Origin: Nitrospiraceae bacterium
Lineage (GTDB): Bacteria > Nitrospirota > Thermodesulfovibrionia > Thermodesulfovibrionales > UBA1546
Assembly (NCBI GenBank): GCA_003599795.1
Contig: QZJQ01000007.1
Coordinates: forward strand, 1 to 58,909
Reading direction: 5' to 3'
Length of the DNA: 58,909 nt
Position 1 is the first letter of the stretch; every line of letters starts with the position of its first letter. The translations under genes were made by a program, and so were the position numbers. The notes below the pieces were generated by a model that made no database searches, was not told the origin of the DNA, and was given only the letters and a program-made list of their open reading frames with translations. This document shows positions 498 to 48,283 of this stretch, piece by piece.

Positions 498-1214
498 CTA
501 TTCTTTAATGTAAAACTGCATCTTGATATTTGCCACGTCAACTATATCGCCGTCTTTAAGCTCATGGCGCCCTTCCACTGCATTTCCATTCACCTTAAGT
601 TTCTTGCCCTCAGACGGGCTGATAAAATAACCGCTCTTAGTCCTGTTAATGAGAGCGGCAACTTTCGGCGCAAAAAAACCTTTTAATTTTATTAGCGATG
701 TATCTGATTTTCCTATTGTCGTAAGCCGGCCCGCAAGCTCGTATTCCCTCTTGTCCGTATTTCCCTCAATTATTGTGAACCCGCCAAGCTTTTCTCCGAG
801 TCCTGCCTGGCCTGCTGCGCGCGCTTCTTCTATCATTGCCTTGTGCTTCTTGGGGTCAATTATTATGGTCTCGCCCATCGCAGGCTTTTTTATCTTTAGC
901 GTCTCTGTCTGGTCCTCCTCATGCTCCTGCGGCGAAATGAATATCAAAGAGTGCTTGCCTATTACAATATCATCATTGCTGCTCAGCGCGGATTCAGAAA
1001 TCCTTTTGCCGTTTACAAAAGTGCCGTTTGTGCTGTTCAGGTCTTGAATAAAAAATTTTCCCCCTCTGTTTATCAGCTTGGCATGAAAACCCGAGACAGC
1101 GAGGTTATCAATATGAATATCATTTCCCGGGTTCCTGCCGATTGTAACTGTATCCTTATCCAGAGGGATTTCTTTCAAGACTGCCTCTTTAAACTTCAGC
1201 ATAACCTTTGACAT
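498..1214 (-). CDS. FHA-domain protein, last gene of a Ser/Thr phospho-signalling operon
   Basis: A 238-residue cytoplasmic protein. The N-terminal forkhead-associated domain (about residues 20-95) has the phosphothreonine-binding signature: TIGRNPGNDI, SGFHAKL and DLNSTNGTFVNGK. A second, degenerate FHA-like fold seems present at about 160-235 (RLTTIGKSD, LKVNGNAVEG, LKDGDIVDV). The linker carries a TETLKI stretch that recalls the phosphorylatable threonine segment of GarA-type FHA proteins; whether it is a substrate is inference. It lies directly downstream of a PP2C phosphatase and a Ser/Thr kinase in the same orientation, so it is likely the phospho-threonine reader or substrate of that pair. 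Confidence 0.85.
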   Translation of the reverse strand: MSKVMLKFKEAVLKEIPLDKDTVTIGRNPGNDIHIDNLAVSGFHAKLINRGGKFFIQDLNSTNGTFVNGKRISESALSSNDDIVIGKHSLIFISPQEHEEDQTETLKIKKPAMGETIIIDPKKHKAMIEEARAAGQAGLGEKLGGFTIIEGNTDKREYELAGRLTTIGKSDTSLIKLKGFFAPKVAALINRTKSGYFISPSEGKKLKVNGNAVEGRHELKDGDIVDVANIKMQFYIKE

Positions 1215-1228
1215 TATTGCCTCCTATG

Positions 1229-2026
1229 TCATCTGAAGAGATTTTTGAATTTCTTTAAAAAAGTTTTATCCTCAAACAAATACACAAGCGCTACGGTTAT
1301 ATTATCCTTGCCGCCGTTTTTATTGGCAATATCAATAAGCGAGCTGCAGGCGCTGCCTGGTTCATCAGAAGCGGCAACTATAGAAAGGATAACATTGTCA
1401 GGAACCATGGTTGTAAGCCCGTCACTGCAAAGGAGCACCCTGTCAGCGTCCATAAGGTCTATTTCATCAAGGTCCACTTCCACGGAAGGCATCGTGCCGA
1501 GAGCCCGCGTAATAATATTCCGTATCTCGGAACCCTCTGCCTCTTCTTTTGTAATCAGGCCGCTTTTAATCTGCTCGGACACTATTGAATGGTCATCAGT
1601 AAGCTGGACAATTGAATTTGCCCTGATAAGGTACACCCTGCTGTCGCCTGTGTGAGCTATGCTCATCTTGCCGTTGTCAAGCATAACCGCGGCTACTGTC
1701 GTTCCCATACCGCGCCATTTAACATTGCTTTGCGACGCCTCATATATCGCCAGGTTGGCAAGCCTTATGCCTGATGCAATCCTGTTTGACTCATCAGAAA
1801 ATTTTTTGTCATAATCGCCCACGAACGGCTCATTCCCTGCAGATGAGCGCTTAATATGATCCCTTATCATCTCAACTGCCATCCTGCTTGCGACCTCTCC
1901 TGCGGCAGCTCCGCCCATGCCGTCTGCAACAATAAAAAGGCGCAAATCTTCGTCAATACAAAAACTATCCTCGTTGTTCTGCCTTGAGACGCCTTTGTCT
2001 GATTTTGCCGCAGAAAGAAACTTCAT
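1229..2026 (-). CDS. PP2C-family Ser/Thr protein phosphatase
   Basis: A 265-residue metal-dependent phosphatase of the bacterial Stp/PrpC type. Motifs in order: SRQNNEDSF near the N-terminus, VADGMGGAAAGE (metal-binding aspartate), GMGTTVAAV, HTGDSRVYLIR, LTDDHS, ITRALG, LCSDGL and GGKDNITVAL. All expected metal ligands are visible and the length is typical, so it should be active. It starts 3 bp after the kinase stop and is followed 14 bp later by the FHA gene. It likely reverses phosphorylation by that kinase. Confidence 0.93.
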   Translation of the reverse strand: MKFLSAAKSDKGVSRQNNEDSFCIDEDLRLFIVADGMGGAAAGEVASRMAVEMIRDHIKRSSAGNEPFVGDYDKKFSDESNRIASGIRLANLAIYEASQSNVKWRGMGTTVAAVMLDNGKMSIAHTGDSRVYLIRANSIVQLTDDHSIVSEQIKSGLITKEEAEGSEIRNIITRALGTMPSVEVDLDEIDLMDADRVLLCSDGLTTMVPDNVILSIVAASDEPGSACSSLIDIANKNGGKDNITVALVYLFEDKTFLKKFKNLFR

Positions 2027-44584: not shown

Positions 44585-44611
44585 ACCTAACTCTTCGGTG
44601 TGTACGTTATA
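44585..44611 (-). other. attC-like site, weak (end of third cassette)
   Basis: Minus strand GTATAAC ... GTTAGGT, 11 bp past the stop of the RDD gene, with outer arms CTGTATA and TATACAG. Short and imperfect compared with typical attC sites. The rest of 44445-44621 shows no gene. Confidence 0.35.
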
Positions 44612-44621
44612 CAGGGGAAAG

Positions 44622-45374
44622 TCAAGAATGTCTTTGATATGCTGTCAATAACCCTATTAAATAAAAATAACCGATAAAGAAAATTATTGCGACAATCACG
44701 CGCATGGGACCGATTTTATCATGAGACACGATAAAATTGCCTTCACGATCCCATGATGTTATACCATCTTTTGTTAGGTTATTATGTGCAATAGCAAGAG
44801 TTATAAGTATAACGATCGGGAATCCTATCCCAAGCCCTCTCCACCACACTGAAAAACTACGTGTTAAAGCACTTGAAAATGTCAGTTTATCCCCTGCACC
44901 ATTCCGTAAAGAGGTTTTGAATAACCATTTCCCCGGAGTACTACCCCATGTCGATATCAAGCTTGATTCTACGAAAATCCAAATGAATATTATTAACATG
45001 CCCAATGCAAAATCTGGCATATTTGACATAGATGGGTGGAAAAACACCAATACAAAACCAGCAAGAAGTGAGAATGAACAAAGATCAAACATCCTTGCCC
45101 AAAAGCGAACCCATGGACGGACTTGGATCCCCGCAAGTAACCCTAAAGAAGGAATTGGCGGCGGTTCTTGTTTTGGCAAAGGCGGCGGATAAGGAATAAC
45201 CTTCACTAAGAAAGCTTCAACTTTAAAAGCTGGTGTCCATTTTGATAAATTGTCAGACCAAATCAGTGTCGCAGCTCCCAAAATTCCAGCGTTAAACATC
45301 TCATGCATCTTACTCTGAGGAACTGGCCCCTCTTGTTTGTTCTCCTTAACGTAATACCACATTCTTTCACTCAT
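44622..45374 (-). CDS. GYF_2/RDD membrane protein (cassette gene 3)
   Basis: A 250-residue protein. The N-terminal GYF_2 (DUF4339) domain has WYYVKENKQEGPVPQSKM and TLIWSDNLSKWTPA; a proline-rich linker (PYPPPLPKQEPPPIP) follows; then an RDD domain with helices such as FSLLAGFVLVFF and the STWGSTPGKWLFK motif. Function unknown; such proteins are common in integron cassettes and may affect envelope or transport. A GGAGCTAA ribosome binding site precedes the start. Confidence 0.85.
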   Translation of the reverse strand: MSERMWYYVKENKQEGPVPQSKMHEMFNAGILGAATLIWSDNLSKWTPAFKVEAFLVKVIPYPPPLPKQEPPPIPSLGLLAGIQVRPWVRFWARMFDLCSFSLLAGFVLVFFHPSMSNMPDFALGMLIIFIWIFVESSLISTWGSTPGKWLFKTSLRNGAGDKLTFSSALTRSFSVWWRGLGIGFPIVILITLAIAHNNLTKDGITSWDREGNFIVSHDKIGPMRVIVAIIFFIGYFYLIGLLTAYQRHS

Positions 45375-45401
45375 ATTTAGCTCCTTTTAAAAACTTGTGC
45401 C

Positions 45402-45435
45402 GCCTAACGTTCACGCACAAACTAAGCCGTTAGGT
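45402..45435 (-). other. attC-like site between cassettes 2 and 3
   Basis: Minus strand ACCTAAC ... GTTAGGC with arms CCTAACG and CGTTAGG, and an internal CACAAAC/GTTTGTG pair. It meets the RYYYAAC/GTTRRRY consensus but is short (34 bp). It starts at the stop of the nuclease-like gene. Confidence 0.55.
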
Positions 45436-46104
45436 TTGTGGTCTTTGCCGTTTGTGCTGTGTTAGCAGTTGCTCTATAATATTACTAATAAAATCTTCTT
45501 GTGCACTATTTGCATACTTCCATAATCTCTGACCAGTCCAATCCCATTGAGGATGGGATGCTTTCTGAATTTTGTATGTATTGAAGCGGCTGTATATAAA
45601 CTCCAAAACGTTTTTCCATGTAATCTGTGGAACTTCTGGATATTTTTGCTTCAGGTCTTGATTGATTTGGTTGCCAACACAAAAAAGTGAAAGGTATGCA
45701 AGTTGGTTTTCAAAGACTCCTTTTTCGTAAATTTGTTTTGCAATTCTGTCTACTGATGCTTCTGGAAAAACTCCAATAGCTCTTAACACTCTATGTATGT
45801 TCATTCTTTCTCTCTGAACCCATGGTCCGTTCAGGTTGCAAGTTTGAGACTTCACCTCAGCAATGATAATATAAGGCTTATGTTTGACTTTTGTGAAGAT
45901 TTCTTCATCGACCATGGGATTTTTCAACAACTCAGCCCTGTAAGGAAATCTTACACCCAAAATATCTACATCGGTTTCTTGTCCGCATCTACTATCTGGG
46001 TGAACAACGAAATTAACAGTTGTAAGAAAACCATTCAAACGGAAGTACCAATAGGCAAGATTTTCGGAATCAATAGGTTTGACTTCTCTCACCTTCATCT
46101 CCAA
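45430..46104 (-). CDS. Putative PD-(D/E)XK-type nuclease (cassette gene 2)
   Basis: A 224-residue soluble protein of no family I can name. The N-terminal half reads ENLAYWYFRLNGFLT, then TDVDILGVRFPYR, then YIIIAEVKSQ. The spacing of D ... D-x-D-ILG ... E-V-K fits a PD-(D/E)XK nuclease core. The C-terminal half (WKNVLEFIYSRFNTY) is helical. Immediate attC-like sequences on both sides mark it as a mobile cassette gene. A defence role is possible but inferred. Confidence 0.55.
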   Translation of the reverse strand: MEMKVREVKPIDSENLAYWYFRLNGFLTTVNFVVHPDSRCGQETDVDILGVRFPYRAELLKNPMVDEEIFTKVKHKPYIIIAEVKSQTCNLNGPWVQRERMNIHRVLRAIGVFPEASVDRIAKQIYEKGVFENQLAYLSLFCVGNQINQDLKQKYPEVPQITWKNVLEFIYSRFNTYKIQKASHPQWDWTGQRLWKYANSAQEDFISNIIEQLLTQHKRQRPQT

Positions 46105-46129
46105 TCTTCGTTATAAGGCAATTTCGGAT

Positions 46130-46199
46130 AACGACCAAGCTCACTGGCGGCGGTTCCGCTTACGCTCCATCCCCGCCAGTGCAGCGCATTGTTAGATGC
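46130..46199 (-). other. attC site of cassette 1
   Basis: Minus strand begins GCATCTAAC right after the stop of cassette gene 1, then inner arms CACTGGCGG (46173-46181 region) and CCGCCAGTG (46142-46150), ending GTCGTTATCC. The GCATCTAAC is the exact reverse complement of GTTAGATGC at the cassette start (47221-47229), the hallmark of a complete integron gene cassette. Confidence 0.85.
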
Positions 46200-47204
46200 T
46201 CACTTATATTGTTCCTGAATGATAAAAGAATTAGCGATCATTTTAAAAAGTAGTTCAAAACGACTAAAATTTTCTTGCAGTTTTGACTCTTTACCTGGCG
46301 TAGCAGAAATCACACACTGAATGAATACCATTTTATTTCCATGTATAATAATGAAGTGCAGATTTCGCATTGTCAAAGTCAAGTCAAGTCTTTGCACTGA
46401 TTGGTCAAAAAGGATCATAGCACCTTTATGATTATCTAGAACAATGGGTTTCGCAGAAATGAACTTTCCACCATCAGAAACCATCCCTCTCAATTCACTT
46501 TCAGTGAAGAACTCATCTAAATCCTTCTGGGTTAGTGTATAACCAGGAGGTAATGGAATGTCTTTCACCATAATCAAAAACATTTCCAAACCCCTGCCAT
46601 TTTCACTTGTGAATTTTTGGATAATATTTGGCCTTTCCCCTTCTTTAGGTTGCCAGCTAATAGGATAACGAATCTGAAAATCAATACCCTTTGCTTTTGG
46701 GTGACCTTTTGTTCGGAAAATACGGTTATATCCTTTAGTGAATTCTTCCGCTGGACGATATTGAAATTGATATGTAAGCAATGTTTCCAGAATAGGGGAA
46801 GGGACATTGCCTTTAGCTCTTGATTCTACTTCGGCAAGAAACAGTACTGCGATGTCTTGATTTAACTGTTGAGGAGAGAGTGTAGATTTGAGTTGCTTCT
46901 TCATCCTTGCCACATATTCAGAATATTTATCTTTAAGCATGTCTTTCAGAGCACTTTTGATATTCTCTTCAGCAATGCCAAATGCTGTTTTGAATTCAAG
47001 GTCTGCCTTTTGAACCCGTAAACCTAGGGCTGGATATTCATCCTTTATACGATTAAGGCTAAATCGTTGTCCCATGATAAATCCCAACGTTTTGCTCAAA
47101 TCAACGTGAAGCGACTCCTGAATTGTCTGGCCAGACACGGATTGAACAGAAACAATAGTAAATGCCATGAATATGCTTATAAATAATAAACAAAAAGTTT
47201 TCAT
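46200..47204 (-). CDS. Exported protein of unknown function (cassette gene 1)
   Basis: A 334-residue protein with a Sec signal (LLFISIFMAFTIVSVQSVSG). Middle part helical and charged (residues 50-140). The C-terminal half, from about 170, looks like a PsbP/DUF1795-type sandwich (FQIRYPISWQPKEGERPN, LFDQSVQRLDLTL). Family only tentatively placed. Its stop codon touches the attC site and its start lies 17 bp after the cassette start, the compact layout of a cassette. Base use is richer in A/T than the dcw genes. Confidence 0.75.
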   Translation of the reverse strand: MKTFCLLFISIFMAFTIVSVQSVSGQTIQESLHVDLSKTLGFIMGQRFSLNRIKDEYPALGLRVQKADLEFKTAFGIAEENIKSALKDMLKDKYSEYVARMKKQLKSTLSPQQLNQDIAVLFLAEVESRAKGNVPSPILETLLTYQFQYRPAEEFTKGYNRIFRTKGHPKAKGIDFQIRYPISWQPKEGERPNIIQKFTSENGRGLEMFLIMVKDIPLPPGYTLTQKDLDEFFTESELRGMVSDGGKFISAKPIVLDNHKGAMILFDQSVQRLDLTLTMRNLHFIIIHGNKMVFIQCVISATPGKESKLQENFSRFELLFKMIANSFIIQEQYK

Positions 47205-47220
47205 CTGCCATTATCCTTTC

Positions 47221-47229
47221 GCATCTAAC
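47221..47229 (-). other. Start boundary of gene cassette 1 (recombination core)
   Basis: Minus strand GTTAGATGC, the GTTRRRY core where integron recombination occurs. Upstream on that strand (47230-47370) there is only a small GCAC-TCAG-GTGC hairpin and no integrase gene. Confidence 0.75.
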
Positions 47230-47375
47230 TTGTTTATAATTGCACTCAGGTGCGTTTGTCCTCCTGAAAAAGGACATTTGCATCCTAAGATACAAAAGAG
47301 CGATATTCCTGTCAAGGAAATTTTCACATCCAAAAGCAGGACTCTGAGAAATGACAAAAGTATCGAATTATGTTG

Positions 47376-47381
47376 TATAAT
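47376..47381 (+). promoter_or_regulatory. TATAAT box directly upstream of the AbiEii-like pair
   Basis: A consensus -10 (TATAAT) ends 6 bp before the ATG at 47388, so transcription would start at or beside the start codon. The -35 is poor (ATGACA at 47351, 19 bp away). Confidence 0.4.
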
Positions 47382-47387
47382 AAATCC

Positions 47388-47654
47388 ATGAAAACCATTG
47401 ATACTACAGTAAATATATCTATGAAATATCCGGTGTCCGAAAAGAAACTATCTGAGATTATAAAATCTGGAAAAACGGATAATAAATATCTTGCGCATAT
47501 ATTTGCCTTGTTTACCGATGTCCCCGCGCCTGATTTATTGGCTTTCATCAAAAAATATGATATATCCTTGCCTGCCATCAAGAAATATTACTTTAAGCAC
47601 GTAAAGAAATTTTACCCTAATGCCGAATTAGAAAATGTCTTTACGTTTAAATAA
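47388..47654 (+). CDS. Small protein preceding AbiEii-like gene, possible antitoxin
   Basis: An 88-residue protein (starts MKTIDTTVNISMKYPVS). Mixed charge, likely helical, with VPAPDLLAFIKKYDISLPAIKKYYFKH in the second half. No family recognised. Its stop overlaps the next start (TAATG), so the two are coupled. The size and position suit an antitoxin or regulator of the nucleotidyltransferase. An earlier in-frame start at 47370 would place the -10 box within the gene. Confidence 0.65.
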   Translation: MKTIDTTVNISMKYPVSEKKLSEIIKSGKTDNKYLAHIFALFTDVPAPDLLAFIKKYDISLPAIKKYYFKHVKKFYPNAELENVFTFK

Positions 47655-48283
47655 TGAAATCTGCTGACTGGCTTCCTCTCTTTAAGTTCGCTTTAAAAAT
47701 CTTATCACAGGAAAAGGTTTTAAAAAGTCAGTGGTCTTTCGGCGGCGGAACTGCTTTAATGACTTACTATAATCACAGGAAAAGTAAAGATATTGATATT
47801 TTCTTGAGAGACGTCCAGCTTCTAACAAAATTTACGCCGCGATTAAACGACTATGTTGCCGAGCAAACAGATGACTATACCGAAATGTCAAACTCTCTGA
47901 AATTGAAGGTAAAGGAACAAGAGATAGATTTTATTGTTGCCCCGTTATTAACCAAAACGCCTACATTAAAAAAGATAGTGGGCAATACTCCAATTTATAT
48001 TGAAACCCCGGAAGAAATAGTAATCAAGAAAATTTTTTATAGGGCAGACGCCTTCAAAACAAGAGATGTCTTTGATCTGGCAGTTGTTATTAAGCATAAA
48101 GAGAATAGCCTTTTAGAGAATCTTGATATTTTTCAGAGTAAGATAGATGTCTTACTAAACAGGCTAAATATCCTGAAAAAAATTTACGCTATTGAATTGA
48201 AATCCCTTGATATTATAGACAGCCAGACTGCTAAGGACTCCCTCAAGATAGTACAAGAATTTATTAATAAGTTAATTCACTGA
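47654..48283 (+). CDS. Nucleotidyltransferase of the AbiEii/AbiGii toxin family
   Basis: A 209-residue protein with the nucleotidyltransferase start [23 protein letters not shown] (GG x TA, D-x-D pattern) and the later EIDFIVAP third acidic site. [27 protein letters not shown] is the hallmark AbiEii segment. AbiEii enzymes act as toxins by modifying tRNA or other RNA and give phage defence. Active residues appear intact. The upstream coupled gene is not the classic AbiEi winged-helix antitoxin. Confidence 0.85.

Follow-up and report, generated by a model that had tools for sequence, protein, structure and literature searches.

We describe here a short array of gene cassettes in a Nitrospiraceae genome that is probably the integrase-less remnant of an integron-like platform, one served by a tyrosine recombinase that we call X. 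X is related to the integron integrase IntI and lacks the IntI insertion, the I2 helix. With somewhat less confidence, we favor the view that X platforms make up a second integron lineage, spread over bacteria and archaea and marked by an I2-less integrase, a distinct folded attC (attC-X) whose outer stem is extended, and a palindromic attI (attI-X). The array lies in a 58,909-nt stretch of DNA, hereafter the window, which is contig C3 of a 1.4-Mb MAG (G000) that is 74.7% complete.

The array comprises three leftward open reading frames packed head to tail, just as a first-pass annotation made from the sequence alone had described them (Table 1). That annotation also read the ends of cassette 1 correctly: the cassette start GTTAGATGC lies at 47229-47221, its exact complement GCATCTAAC opens attC1, and attC1 has 9-bp inner arms (CACTGGCGG/CCGCCAGTG). 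The claim of an attC-like site after each stop went too far, as there are two attC sites and not three. The cassette 2 stop codon lies inside attC2, no attC was detected after cassette 3 by either covariance model used here (R1 and R2, below), and the stretch that follows cassette 3 folds no better than its shuffles. The overall reading, an integrase-less cluster of the CALIN type, stands. It was incomplete in that one of the expected sites is missing, attC2 is not canonical, and half an attI (47253-47225) that leads directly into cassette 1 had been overlooked.

Table 1. Features of the cassette array and its upstream junction (window coordinates).
Feature	Position	Strand	Remarks
Cassette 3	44622..45407	-	ORF 44622-45374, 250 aa, GYF_2 and RDD domains
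attC2	45400..45469	-	attC-X type
Cassette 2	45408..46131	-	724 bp; attC-X-like start TTATCCGAAATTGCC
Cassette 2 ORF	45430..46104	-	224 aa
attC1	46124..46199	-	canonical integron attC with L'' bulge
Cassette 1	46132..47228	-	1097 bp; exact 9-nt complementarity between start and R''
Cassette 1 ORF	46200..47204	-	334 aa; hydrophobic N terminus resembling a signal peptide
Right half of attI-X	47225..47253	-	GCACCTGAGTGCAATTATAAACAAGTTAG; predicted crossover G^TT between 47229 and 47228
Inferred breakpoint	47254..47260	-	GGACAAA (plus one base)
Promoter-like sequence into cassette 1	47287..47315	-	TTGACA 47315-47310, 17-nt spacer, TATCTT 47292-47287

The cassettes carry unusual cargo. The cassette 1 protein matched no family, the cassette 1 DNA had no match in plasmids, and Rfam gave no matches in the window. 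The cassette 2 protein had neither a family nor a library match; its D-x-D-I-L-G-V ... I-I-I-A-E-V-K pattern recalls PD-(D/E)XK nucleases. Fixed gene order in distant relatives, which the first-pass annotation had named as grounds against a cassette array, was not seen: 148 related genomes all lack the proteins encoded by cassettes 1 and 2. Because the start (GTTATCCGA) and the end (ACTGCTAAC) of cassette 2 are not complementary to each other, two cassettes may have fused to give this unit.

The two attC sites, about 0.7 kb apart, differ in type. attC1 has the R''/R' boxes, the L''/L' stem and the extrahelical base in L'' of a canonical attC, here a single bulged base at three pairs into that arm. 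It shares the geometry of class 1 integron attCs, the L'' bulge included, and is identical in this respect to the aadA2 and dfrB3 sites; geometry and stem together are expected 0.0045 times per 59 kb (1346 dinucleotide shuffles). Start and end of cassette 1 pair no further than the R box, which is the pattern that a canonical attC should show. Both sites were returned by covariance models, the kind of search that the first-pass annotation had proposed as a check. A model of 11 canonical sites from class 1 integrons and IntI loci, the window not among them (R2), found attC1 as its sole match in the window (26.2 bits, E 0.0012), and gave no match to attC2 at E≤5. Conversely, a model of attC-X sites from which the window was also absent (R1) found attC2 as its sole match in 59 kb (41.7 bits, E 2e-7). 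An R2 scan of the whole MAG listed weak matches only and not attC1, which was probably lost in the pre-filter.

There is no IntI in the window. Elsewhere in the genome, where the annotation had advised looking for intI, neither IntI nor X protein was found in the MAG (74.7% complete); its best and only TIGR02249-like match was considered as a candidate IntI and rejected, as it is XerD. With about 75% of the genome assembled, an integrase elsewhere is therefore possible. A search of 61 genomes, this MAG plus 60 relatives, gave an IntI above the family cut-off in 17, and the congeners G001, G003 and G004 have real intI genes. By the working definition, which asks for two or more attC sites and no integrase, the array is formally a CALIN: it has two attC sites near each other and no integron integrase nearby in a MAG that is 74.7% complete, and the label fits because neither window nor MAG contains IntI. 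Like the CALINs of IntegronFinder (PMC9024848), it is a short array of two attC-type sites without an integrase in window or MAG. Unlike them, it keeps half an attI, from an integrase lineage without I2, and joins one canonical site to one attC-X.

The half attI was recognized by a DNA search. Read on the minus strand, 47253-47225, ending GTTAG, is identical at 29 of 29 positions to G008:C79:159-187, a site that lies ~90 bp past the 3' end of an X tyrosine recombinase gene in a related genus. Sites 88–93% identical to 47225-47253 occur in three more genomes (G068, G087, G185), where they adjoin X genes or their remains; the integrase genes of G087 and G185 are broken or partial. The exact half site had no match in viral contigs.

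Upstream of the half site lies sequence of another kind. The 76-bp stretch 47330-47255 is 88% identical to a promoter-like repeat in the congener G005 and holds a putative promoter, recognized by its match to the consensus. Since this repeat precedes unrelated genes in other relatives, we take the stretch for a dispersed promoter-like repeat, which may be a conserved promoter or a mobile repeat. For the same reason the 76 bp were rejected as a conserved attI, and only the next 29 bp are assigned to attI. In the window and at other loci (L042, L049, L050, L043, L064) the repeat reads TGTGAAAATTACCTTGACAGG, a 17-nt spacer and TATNNT, often followed by GGAG..ATGGGGTAA; many relatives have it ahead of unrelated genes. 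The two homologies abut, that to the repeat stopping at 47255 and that to attI-X starting at 47253. Because they meet at GGACAAA, which is common to the promoter repeat (GGAGGACAAATG, G005) and attI-X (GGGACAAAAGTTGCACC, G008), a deletion at this microhomology is suggested. Searching by flank homology for a relative with an empty site returned matches to the promoter repeat only, so it is the junction itself that points to the deletion route.

X is set apart from IntI by what it lacks. In an alignment with IntI and XerD it has no insertion, and against VchIntIA (2a3v) about 15 residues separate two blocks that are ~57 residues apart in IntI; the IntI-specific insertion around patch III, the I2 helix, is absent. 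X carries PF13495 (Phage_int_SAM_4) and PF00589 (Phage_integrase), as does IntI, and differs in its N-terminal domain from XerD, which has PF02899. An AF2 model (mean pLDDT 84, pTM 0.65) found 2a3v as its top structural neighbor in Foldseek, and the archaeal Xer 4a8e together with 2a3v in VIA-align. X scores 199–222 bits in two pieces against TIGR02249, short of the cut-off of 265, and 180–194 against the XerC/XerD models, short of cut-offs of ~330. Neither by a Phage_int_SAM_1 domain, nor by these cut-offs, nor by grouping with Xer does X qualify as a XerC/XerD dimer resolvase. X is close to the NF040815 family ("site-specific tyrosine recombinase/integron integrase"), whose cut-off is passed by three of four X proteins tested, and to archaeal XerA, with 5hxy as well as 4a8e among the structural neighbors. 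Archaeal Xer proteins are known as dif-type dimer resolvases; X differs from them in having cassette arrays.

In a tree, X, IntI and a loosely related group of recombinases, Y (41–49% identity), stand apart from Xer with support of 100/100. IntI is monophyletic (100/100) on a long stem and X falls outside its clade; the branching order among X, Y and IntI has no support. A gain of I2 on the IntI stem would fit this topology. An R1 search of the Y loci gave no match. X-related proteins occur in archaea and many bacterial phyla, and those of the relatives are 60–84% identical to the G068 copy. In Nitrospirota X proteins (L054 52-1419; L096 9692-10810), an N-terminal extension precedes the SAM-like domain and contains a motif resembling ITVSFPYDPxLVxxxKTIPGHRWHPxxKYWSFP. 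The insertion-less integrases of the tree also include TnpF (L128 3043-3708, FJ012881), encoded beside tet(X3) on an Acinetobacter-type plasmid.

X loci have the layout of an integron platform, with attI beside the integrase gene and a cassette array after it, and in many phyla the X gene, attI and the first cassette directly follow one another. On the 3' side of the X gene stand two ~20-bp palindromes and a core like AAACAAGTTA, and the first cassette begins at GTTA. The palindromes vary in sequence by lineage and keep their palindromy, which exceeds that of shuffles in most loci; such an attI-X follows X in archaea and several bacterial phyla. Chromosomal integrons with IntI (VchIntIA, IntI1) share with X loci an attI, the G^TT core, and attC sites that have TAAC/GTTA boxes, an inner stem and an R'' complementary to the start of their own cassette. 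They differ from X loci in several respects: X lacks I2 and is encoded on the cassette strand, its attI lies 3' of the gene and is made of two palindromes, and attC-X has an unbulged inner stem, spacers of 1 and 5 nt, and an outer stem that continues beyond the R boxes.

Sites with the attC-X geometry were found by a single finder 16 times downstream of X on the integrase strand, never on the opposite strand, and once, spuriously, in 164 kb upstream. R1 was built from those 16 sites, and its training drew partly on X loci. It matches X loci and attC2 of the window and none of 20 IntI loci, and in other phyla nearly all of its matches lie on the integrase strand. R2 matches IntI loci and attC1 and no X locus. 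One genome (G210, locus L225) has 13 attC-X sites on at least seven contigs; they are scattered singly or in small groups at a great distance from the X gene, a pattern that the window shares.

The sequences of attC-X sites vary as those of a folded element would be expected to. Ten of the 12 inner-stem pairs are changed on both sides, covariation in this stem is 0.64 compared with 0.23 after shuffling and at most 0.14 when slid, and the asymmetry of the spacers is conserved. Across 41 inferred X cassettes, the complementarity between a cassette's start and its own end extends beyond GTTA at 4.0 of 5 positions, as against 2.3 when ends are permuted (p<1/20000), and over a wider span reaches 6.8 of 15, as against 4.1 (p<1/20000). 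It continues for up to ~20 nt, with a frequent A.C mismatch near position 7 to 8. A model-free scan for an end matching the start succeeded in 7 of 10 further X loci, all with at least 900 bp downstream and outside the 41 cassettes, and found no such end on the opposite strand. Covariation and self-complementarity together lend indirect support to integrase-dependent recombination between attI and an attC-X folded as a single strand.

Double-strand recombination by X is the main rival to this reading: X would recombine attC-X in duplex form, much as Xer does at dif, with the inverted repeats serving as ordinary binding sites. That X lacks I2 and that attI-X is palindromic, as for recombinases of double-stranded DNA, both speak for it, and we judge it doubtful. 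It sits poorly with the conserved strand asymmetry (1-nt against 5-nt spacers) and with attC-X arms that differ between cassettes and are complementary within each. Because the arms vary yet stay complementary within the cassette, folding is favored over a fixed binding motif. A different division of labor would have IntI, acting in trans, move the attC-X arrays, with X confined to its own double-stranded palindromic site. Cassette capture has been reported to require the I2 helix, which is described as found in IntI alone and as having no known intermediates (PMC7790495), and several X genomes also carry IntI. The distribution of attC-X argues otherwise. R1 detects sites in 60 of 298 genomes, namely in all 18 with X and in 42 of the 280 others (p 3e-14; host kinship uncorrected), and when the seven genomes that contributed training sites are left out, all 11 remaining X genomes have attC-X (p 3e-9; host kinship uncorrected). 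In genomes that lack X, the presence of attC-X shows no relation to IntI (4/13 vs 12/42, odds ratio 1.1, p 1). The link to X is not one to one, with 42 of 280 genomes having attC-X and no detected X, which gaps in MAGs, loss or dispersal could explain. Moreover, one genome that is a single closed contig (G026) has X, attI and an array and no IntI, and the contiguity of X gene, attI and first cassette across many phyla likewise tells against movement by IntI, which we consider unlikely. The G026 array encodes a HEC-05-type protein and, judged by sequence, a HicB/HicA-like pair.

Two further explanations concern the window alone. CALINs can arise by attG insertion, and the array could have been inserted at a non-classical chromosomal site, an attG, by an integrase in trans, with no attI ever present. 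Such attG sites are an accepted class of integrase target (PMC12901181). The insertion point nevertheless lies in a recognizable half attI-X rather than in random chromosomal sequence, and we regard this origin as very improbable. An ordinary CALIN, that is, a fragment of a normal IntI integron to which X and the attI-like stretch are unrelated, would account for the canonical attC1 and would agree with the real intI genes of the three congeners. Against it stand the 29/29 identity to an X attI and an attC2 of a type absent from 20 IntI loci and missed by R2, and it seems improbable.

On the explanation that we prefer, a remnant of an X-type platform, the ancestral locus would have had an X gene without I2 in the direction of the cassettes, followed by an attI of two palindromes ending like AAACAAG^TTA. 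X would bind this attI and folded attC sites and exchange strands at G^TT, so that circular cassettes would enter beside attI. It is from their association that we infer recombination of attC-X by X, and the arm patterns suggest that attC-X is active in single-stranded form. A deletion, with the 7-bp homology GGACAAA as its probable site, would have taken the integrase gene and the left half of attI and placed the cassettes behind the resident promoter-like repeat. What remains would be a cassette with a canonical attC, a cassette with attC-X and a third without a detected attC, presumably immobile now unless an integrase acts in trans. Judged by its sites, the array is chimeric, since it joins a canonical attC1 to an attI half and an attC2 that would derive from an X platform. 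The presence of a canonical attC at an X-type attI would need cross-use by X or action of IntI, as no other X locus examined has a canonical attC.

Integrons and CALINs are already known. In the literature searched, outside which lie preprints and most subscription journals, we found none that describes integron integrases lacking the insertion and accompanied by attI and attC arrays. An "integron-like" subgroup of simple tyrosine recombinases in which the insertion is "not fully conserved" is on record from Smyshlyaev et al. (2021; PMC8138268), who treat the insertion as indispensable to integron function; the passages considered make no mention of cassette arrays or attI for insertion-less members, such as X has. 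If X platforms are what we propose, cassette capture would not need I2 and possibly predates it. An I2-less lineage beside its own attI and attC arrays would allow direct tests of how single-strand cassette recombination arose, and there are cultured X hosts: Clostridium sp. OS1-26, Acetivibrio alkalicellulosi and Alkaliphilus pronyensis. Some CALINs, the one in the window included, would then be pieces of the X system and could be traced to their source, and X platforms would be labeled integrase-less by any search that demands the IntI insertion.

Two observations concern the surroundings of the array and the rest of its genome. Contig C47 of the MAG (G000:C47, L019) encodes a paralogue of the cassette 1 protein (30% identical in a partial match; gene 691-1758, minus strand), which adjoins a weak canonical attC-like site (592-661, minus strand); gene and site are perhaps a second stranded cassette in the same MAG. 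In the window, the array is adjoined by a gene for an AbiEii-like nucleotidyltransferase, with a small partner upstream of it (47370-48283, plus strand); the two are a possible toxin-antitoxin or defense pair.
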